DNA of 43,637 bases from Limisphaerales bacterium (GTDB lineage: Bacteria > Verrucomicrobiota > Verrucomicrobiia > Limisphaerales > UBA1100), in the NCBI GenBank assembly GCA_014382585.1, contig JACNJL010000031.1, positions 1 through 43,637 on the forward strand. Reading direction: 5' to 3'. Below the pieces are notes generated by a model. The model was given only the letters and a program-made list of their open reading frames with translations. It had not been told where the DNA came from and searched no databases. Position 1 is the first letter of the stretch. Every line of letters begins with the position of its first letter. Positions 34,478 through 37,250 of this stretch are shown here, one piece after another. The position numbers and the translations under genes are program-made.

Positions 34478-35233
34478 TCACTCCACCACCGGCGACCTCC
34501 ACCGAAACTCCGGCATCCGCAGCCCCGCCAGCGACGGATACGCCGCTCCGCCAAACGCGCCGGCCGCCACTTTGTCGAAGATCAAACCGCAATCCCACCA
34601 AAACCCCTCCGCGCGCACGCCGCATTCGCGCAGCAGTTTGCCGTGATCCAGCCAAACCAATAAACACGCCGCGCGAAACATCAGCCGCCACGCGCCGCAC
34701 ACCAACACCCGCGCCCAAAACGGCCAACGCTCATACGCGTGCCGCAAGTAATCCGTCTGAAACGCCAAGTGCCCCTCTTCGTCGTGACAAATCTGCGCCG
34801 CCACTTCGCGCACCACTGTGTCGTCCACCCCATCGCGCAGCGCGCGGAAGTAACGCTTGGCAATCATCTCCGCCACCAGCAGCACCAACACCTCCAGTTT
34901 CAACCCCAGCAAACGCCGAAACCGTTCAAAACACCAATCCGTCCAATGCCAACGCAACCGCGGCGCACGCATCAAATCCAGCACCCGTCCCATCAAACAC
35001 GCGTGTTCCTGTTCCTCTTTGATAAATAAATCCAGAGCGTGCCGGTACTCCACCGCTTCGCCCGAAGCATTGCGCCGGAGAAAAAATCCATCGCCCGATT
35101 CGCCCAATTGAAATCGCTGCATTGACCGCACCAACACCGCCCGCATCGCCGGCGTCACCTGCACACCTTTCTCCCATGGAATCTCCCGCCGCTTCGACGC
35201 ATTCAAATGAAAATACTCCAGCCAATCCAACAT
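34478..35233 (-). CDS. Ferritin-like (diiron-type) protein, tentative
   Basis: The ATG at 35233 overlaps the ispH stop by one base (TGATG). The protein (251 aa) has helical segments with two carboxylate/His clusters of the ferritin-like EExxH type: IKEEQEHACLMGR and QICHDEEGHLAFQ. Glu-rich and Glu-Arg helices between them (LKLEVLVLLVAEMIAKRY) could complete a four-helix bundle. This would fit a diiron oxidase, hydroxylase or metal store. The C-terminal part holds a hydrophobic helix region and ends SPVVE. Fold is likely, function unknown. It is the last gene of the four-gene operon. Confidence 0.55.
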   Translation of the reverse strand: MLDWLEYFHLNASKRREIPWEKGVQVTPAMRAVLVRSMQRFQLGESGDGFFLRRNASGEAVEYRHALDLFIKEEQEHACLMGRVLDLMRAPRLRWHWTDWCFERFRRLLGLKLEVLVLLVAEMIAKRYFRALRDGVDDTVVREVAAQICHDEEGHLAFQTDYLRHAYERWPFWARVLVCGAWRLMFRAACLLVWLDHGKLLRECGVRAEGFWWDCGLIFDKVAAGAFGGAAYPSLAGLRMPEFRWRSPVVE

Positions 35234-36159
35234 CACGCCACCTCCCATTCCCGTGTTGATGAATTATGCGAAAGCTCCCGCACGCGGGCCTCCACCGCAT
35301 CGATGATCTCATCCGGCGTCGACGTCCCCGCCGTGATTCCCAACACACCCGAAACCGGTAACCACTCCGGCCGCACATCGTCCGGCCCCTGCACGTGATG
35401 GACTGCTTTGCAAAATTCACCGCACGTGCGCGCCAATTCCGCCGTGTTATTGCTATTCACGCCGCCGATCACCAAAACCACATCCGATTCGCGCGCCAAT
35501 TCCATCGCCGATTCCTGACGTTGTTTCGTCGGCCGACACACTGTATCCACAAACCGAATCTCCGCCTGCGGAAAACGCGCCTGTAAATAATTCACCAATT
35601 CCCGCACGCGCGCGATAGGCTGCGTCGTCTGCGCCACCACACCAAAACGCGCGCGCGATTCCACCCCATCCACATCTTCTTTGCTCAAAACCACATCGCA
35701 CGCCACCAAATCCTCCGTCAAACCCCTCACCTCCACGTGCCCACGCCGACCGATCACGATGGGATGAAACCCTGTCACCACTAATTCCCGCACTTTTTCG
35801 TGCGCGAAATGCACCAGCGGACACGTCGCATCGCTCACCCGTAAACCCGCCAACCTAGCACGGGCACGAGCGCGGTCCGAGGCGCCGTGGGCGGTAATCA
35901 TTGCCGCCGAAGTCCCAACACGCTCAGGTTCATTTTCAAACCGCACGCCCCGTTCTTCTAAATCATCTAGCACCGTGACGTTATGCACTAACTCGCCCAG
36001 CACCGTGAGTGGTTGTAACGCCGCCTCGCGCCGCGCCAGAGTAATGGCATCCCGTACGCCAAAGCACATTCCCAAATGCTCCGCGCGACGGACGACGAAG
36101 GGTTCCGCCTGAACGGGTTTAAGCCCGTTGGCTTTGTAAGGCAAAGTTTGTGTTGTCAT
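35233..36159 (-). CDS. ispH: 4-hydroxy-3-methylbut-2-enyl diphosphate reductase
   Basis: This enzyme (308 aa) does the last step of the MEP isoprenoid pathway, reducing HMBPP to IPP and DMAPP with a 4Fe-4S cluster held by Cys32 (LGMCFGVRD), Cys113 (SDATCPLV) and Cys208 (DTVCRPTKQRQ). The substrate-site residues HGAS and SNNTAEL are present. No earlier start is plausible: ATG 36159 overlaps the end of the winged-helix regulator gene by 41 bp in another frame, and it overlaps the next gene by 1 bp. It supplies the isoprene units used by the polyprenyl synthase elsewhere in the window. Confidence 0.95.
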   Translation of the reverse strand: MTTQTLPYKANGLKPVQAEPFVVRRAEHLGMCFGVRDAITLARREAALQPLTVLGELVHNVTVLDDLEERGVRFENEPERVGTSAAMITAHGASDRARARARLAGLRVSDATCPLVHFAHEKVRELVVTGFHPIVIGRRGHVEVRGLTEDLVACDVVLSKEDVDGVESRARFGVVAQTTQPIARVRELVNYLQARFPQAEIRFVDTVCRPTKQRQESAMELARESDVVLVIGGVNSNNTAELARTCGEFCKAVHHVQGPDDVRPEWLPVSGVLGITAGTSTPDEIIDAVEARVRELSHNSSTREWEVA

Positions 36160-37148: not shown

Positions 37149-37173
37149 ATTCACTTTGTACTACAAAGTGAAT
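37149..37173. promoter_or_regulatory. Perfect 25-bp palindromic operator
   Basis: ATTCACTTTGTA (37149-37160) and TACAAAGTGAAT (37162-37173) are perfect inverted copies around a single C. It begins 3 bases upstream of the membrane protein's start codon, so a bound dimer would block transcription or translation initiation of the regulator operon. A 17-bp partial copy exists at 36131-36147. Confidence 0.8.
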
Positions 37174-37250
37174 TGCGCAAGCAAGACTTATCCGCAGAGA
37201 GTTTTGGTGGGGCCCCGAGACACCGGCCCGGGCTACAAATGAAACGCGTA

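Follow-up and report, generated by a model that had tools for sequence, protein, structure and literature searches.

The window (the whole 43,637-nt stretch of Limisphaerales DNA analysed here) carries on its minus strand, in this order, a gene for a secretion ATPase, a palindrome (designated O1), and genes encoding a membrane protein, an HTH_34 winged-helix regulator, a short LytB/IspH protein (IspH2) and a ferritin-like protein (Table 1). Since the genes overlap from the membrane gene onward (the GTG start of the regulator overlaps the stop of the membrane gene), the stretch from the membrane gene through the ferritin-like gene is likely to form one operon. The PF13601 domain of the regulator scored 88.9 bits (against a curated cut-off of 27), and redox sensing by a cysteine of this protein was considered and rejected, the one frequent Cys not being invariant. 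The membrane protein possesses a conserved N-terminal segment (IRTLMERS-YRRALAP), and its confident AlphaFold model matched no PDB entry at E 0.001 or better. IspH2 exceeded the cut-off of TIGR00216 (228.4 vs 187.85 bits) and retains, in an alignment with 3dnf, the catalytic residues. The ferritin-like protein falls into two divergent subfamilies (~29% identical), both of which accompany IspH2.

Table 1. Coordinates of the genes and candidate regulatory features discussed in the text.
Feature	Position	Strand	Remarks
T2SSE-type secretion ATPase	38492-37251	-	upstream of O1
TTGCGC, candidate -35-like box	37175-37180	-	degenerate here; where relatives have TTGAC(A); read by eye from O1 alignment
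O1, 25-bp palindrome	37149-37173	.	candidate operator core 37153-37169 (ACTTTGTACTACAAAGT), kept in orthologs
Membrane protein, 209 aa	36517-37146	-	no Pfam family; six helices in AlphaFold model
HTH_34 (PF13601) winged-helix regulator, 132 aa	36119-36517	-	GTG start; PF13601 E 2.4e-25
O2, degenerate copy of the candidate operator	36131-36147	.	GCTTTGTAAGGCAAAGT, 3 mismatches; inside first ispH2 codons
IspH2, short LytB/IspH, 308 aa	35233-36159	-	PF02401; second IspH of the genome
Ferritin-like protein (by eye)	34478-35248	-	last gene of probable operon; no Pfam/NCBIfam family

In O1 (ATTCACTTTGTA C TACAAAGTGAAT) a single central base separates two perfect 12-bp arms; the palindrome ends 2 bp ahead of the ATG (37146-37144, minus strand) of the membrane protein gene, as an earlier note on this DNA had described it. 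Among palindromes with perfect 12-bp arms and a spacer of 0-4 bp it is the sole case in the window, as compared to 0.03 per dinucleotide shuffle; the 25-bp palindrome is real and beyond chance. Its extent, as given in that note, did not hold: conservation is confined to an inner stretch of 17 bp (ACTTTG-N5-CAAAGT), so that the perfect 25 bp are partly luck and overstate the element. At 57 orthologous O1 sites, base pairing outside the 17-mer did not exceed what column composition predicts. Both half-sites, ACTTTG and CAAAGT, hardly vary, the bases between them are loosely conserved, and the outer flanks show no strong conservation as a dyad. Such near-invariant half-sites, with flanks that pair at no more than chance level, point to a protein dimer reading duplex DNA, and not to an RNA stem. 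The inner 17-mer (ACTTTGTANTACAAAGT) has one exact occurrence in the 3.7-Mb genome, so that the genome-wide motif search from which the earlier note had expected a regulon returned, in this genome, O1 as its only exact match. No consensus sigma-70 promoter was found by a scan of the window.

Conservation and position of the twin sites

Comparison across the order establishes that the site is conserved and that it is twinned: in almost every relative a second copy (O2) is situated about 1 kb from O1, after the regulator gene and before the LytB/IspH gene. We detected the regulator in 66 of 98 genomes, and the locus counts are based on the 64 clear orthologs (>100 bits); a site was called present at ≤4 mismatches of 16, a threshold which, as we estimate from the numbers of mismatches, well under 1% of random 100-bp stretches would pass. 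By this measure O1 precedes the membrane gene in 58 of the 64 orthologous loci (in 48 of these 58, 6 or 7 nt separate the 17-mer from the start codon), and O2 follows the regulator, in a conserved position, in 61 of the 64. The pair of membrane protein and regulator genes is devoid of O1 in G030, G054, G062 and two more loci. The reading of the palindrome as an operator, which the earlier note had tied to its presence upstream of orthologous operons, is thus not refuted and gains support, but it was incomplete in that O2, IspH2 as a target and the wider regulon had been overlooked. More distant PF13601 paralogs of the order (L078-L081) have no such palindrome nearby, save one 4-mismatch site 1 kb off.

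Within the window, O2 rests on orthology and not on its own score, because 3-mismatch sites in this genome are not above the control (6 vs 11 for the reversed pattern in a pattern search). Being degenerate and outside the exact pattern, it may be a relic there; in the window's genus it can still be recognised, and its TTG, TAC and AAA codons are invariant in seven congeners. The distance between O1 and O2 varies little (981-1105 bp, median 1002, 58 loci), as would be expected if one regulator multimer bridged both sites and the ~1-kb DNA between them formed a repression loop. We regard such looping as possible and not needed, and on balance as unlikely, since the distance is already set by two genes whose lengths hardly vary, the regulator consists of little more than one small DNA-binding domain, and in most relatives O2 appears to have a promoter of its own.

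The promoter architecture was read in relatives outside the window's family and f2. Upstream of O1 lies TTGAC, at a distance of 6-7 nt from ACTTTG in 40 of 47 loci, while O2, mostly located 32-47 nt past the regulator stop in these relatives, is preceded by an ECF-sigma-like TGAAC-N17-GTC in 28 of 50 (and by the N16 or N18 variant in 5 more). The patterns joining a promoter box to the putative operator were encountered in 26 and 20 of 96 genomes, all of which harbor the system, and the reversed controls in 0. The ECF-like O2 promoter is absent from the window, and no sigma factor was identified; the window's genus has lost this promoter, and its ispH2 has a GGAGG-type ribosome site inside the regulator gene.

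Co-inheritance with IspH2 and sites outside the locus

Almost every well-assembled genome of the order carries a long IspH, with a domain span of ~1020 bp (in the window's own genome at G000:C43:5177-6196), and a few incomplete genomes have no IspH or the short one only. The short IspH (~813 bp) was recovered in 63 of 96 genomes and is co-inherited with the regulator: both are present in 62 and neither in 32 of the 96 (p 4e-23), the two exceptions (G088 and G064) being at contig ends. Two congeners (L015, L018; also L042, L037) encode the regulator and IspH2 as a single fused ORF of ~400 aa. A remnant of O2 sits in the linker of this fused ORF.

The exact motif follows the same distribution, occurring in 43 of the 64 genomes that have the system and in 2 of the 32 that do not (Fisher p 4e-9); G049 and G073, both incomplete, contain the motif while the regulator was not detected in them. 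Taken together with the presence of a single PF13601 gene in the window's own genome, this tracking of the regulator by the motif lends good support, at the level of sequence comparison, to the earlier proposal that the palindrome is an operator for autoregulation.

Sites unlinked to the locus were likewise found in relatives. Extra exact copies stand before a ferritin-like gene (G038), before membrane-protein genes (G027, G068, G053 and G057), before an ankyrin-repeat gene (G049) and before BchE-like radical SAM genes (G081 and G035). With the exception of the BchE-like ones, homologs of these genes occur downstream of the regulator or IspH2 in other genomes (ferritin-like homologs, for instance, after IspH2). 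Furthermore, in G030 and G054, where the pair is without O1, the operator motif accompanies an ispH2 situated apart from it. These observations provide good comparative evidence for a diffusible factor that would act at unlinked sites; the extra sites L121, L124 and L128 showed no link of this kind. In two genomes (L122:804-2393; L127) the BchE-like B12/radical SAM gene lies directly behind the motif, that of L122 scoring above the TIGR02026 cut-off.

In other classes of the phylum both sites flank the pair in many loci, and the next gene there encodes IspH, a LytB-like protein below the IspH cut-off, a DUF4153 membrane protein, HMG-CoA synthase (TIGR01835, above cut-off; at the second site in L157, without a clear O2 in L162) or others. 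The sites of L150-L160, from another class, are usually extended to ACTTTG-N5-CAAAGT-NCTTT, as if by a third half-site. In another family of the window's class, the LytB/IspH-like genes L140:1885-2733 and L147:496-1356, situated behind the same membrane-regulator pair, fall below the IspH cut-off and have apparently lost the Fe-S cysteines (as judged by eye). The pair and the motif were also found on plasmids of other phyla (Bacteroides, Thermomicrobium, a Chloroflexota bacterium and Aureimonas), with O2 at the start of uppS in Aureimonas; two ACTCTGCATNNCAGAGT-type palindromes were found in Azospirillum, and none in Parabacteroides. A link of the putative operator and the pair to isoprenoid and envelope genes is suggested by these neighborhoods.

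A site of this kind could in principle serve any dimeric factor, and the sites might be bound by a transcription factor other than the neighboring HTH_34 protein. The co-presence and co-absence of motif and regulator across the order, and the recurrence of pair and motif in other phyla with different neighbors, render this quite improbable. Slightly less probable still is an RNA hairpin in the 5' leader (acting in translation control or as terminator of the upstream secretion-ATPase gene): a 61-nt RNA around O1 does fold at -21 kcal/mol (z -3.0 vs shuffles), but it is the bases and not the pairing that are conserved (in 57 and 61 orthologs, centre and flanks pair only to the degree set by column composition), no T tail is present and no terminator was called at O1, no Rfam family matched, and the same motif recurs at O2 and before unlinked genes, with either promoter-box context.

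Proposed mechanism and relation to known systems

A repressor very probably binds the palindrome. More specifically, we consider it likely that O1 and O2 are the operators of an HTH_34 autorepressor that acts with a membrane partner of six helices to control its own expression and that of IspH2. A dimer of the regulator would read the ACTTTG and CAAAGT half-sites, and at O1 it would cover the core promoter of its own operon: the TTGAC -35 box would be immediately before the site and the -10 element within its right half-site, and the transcript would begin at the ATG or beside it, with practically no leader. We infer repression, as opposed to activation, because O1 overlaps this predicted core promoter; that binding at O1 would block both promoter clearance and the start of translation, as the earlier note had proposed from the position of the site, is plausible. 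At O2 the dimer would cover the transcript start of ispH2, which in most relatives appears to have its own ECF-type promoter. Derepression would then supply a second IspH along with accessory membrane and ferritin-like proteins (and, in some relatives, the products of unlinked targets), and the sensor or anti-repressor is likely to be the six-helix membrane protein encoded in the same probable operon. On a more speculative note, this membrane protein could make up, with the PF13601 repressor and the ACTTTG-N5-CAAAGT site, a widespread and undescribed membrane-sensing system that adjusts isoprenoid supply; we put this idea forward tentatively, the second site being at IspH2 in the window's order, at HMG-CoA synthase in some other members of the phylum and at uppS in Aureimonas.

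The closest solved HTH_34 chain, PH1061 (PDB 1ub9), matches the regulator by profile at E 3.5e-10. In the open-access literature searched we found neither an operator or target for any member of the PF13601/HTH_34 family nor a description of this operator system or of a regulated second ispH. The autorepressors of the MarR and ArsR/SmtB families are small, dimeric winged-helix proteins whose palindromic operators overlap their own promoters, and by analogy the regulator of the window would work in the same manner. Its domain matches to these families are weaker than that to PF13601 (with the NCBIfam ArsR model below cut-off), and, unlike in MarR and ArsR/SmtB, no ligand domain or invariant cysteine was seen in it. 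PF13601 regulators are widespread, and the present comparisons assign to one of them a concrete candidate operator of 17 bp, together with a putative regulon and partner genes. In Bacteroides finegoldii (NZ_OY725918.1) the same pair occurs in the same order behind a nearly identical site (ACTTTGTATCACAAAGT); the third gene there is creD and not ispH, no O2 was found after the regulator, and the membrane protein has no Pfam family in common with that of the window.

A bacterium with two IspH homologs is Mycobacterium tuberculosis (LytB1 and LytB2), whose case is presented as one of genetic redundancy (PMC4550268). The second IspH described here, in contrast, travels with a dedicated regulator, with which it comes and goes in many members of one order, and this regulator-linked IspH2 is relevant to the question of why a second copy of this Fe-S enzyme is retained in some bacteria.
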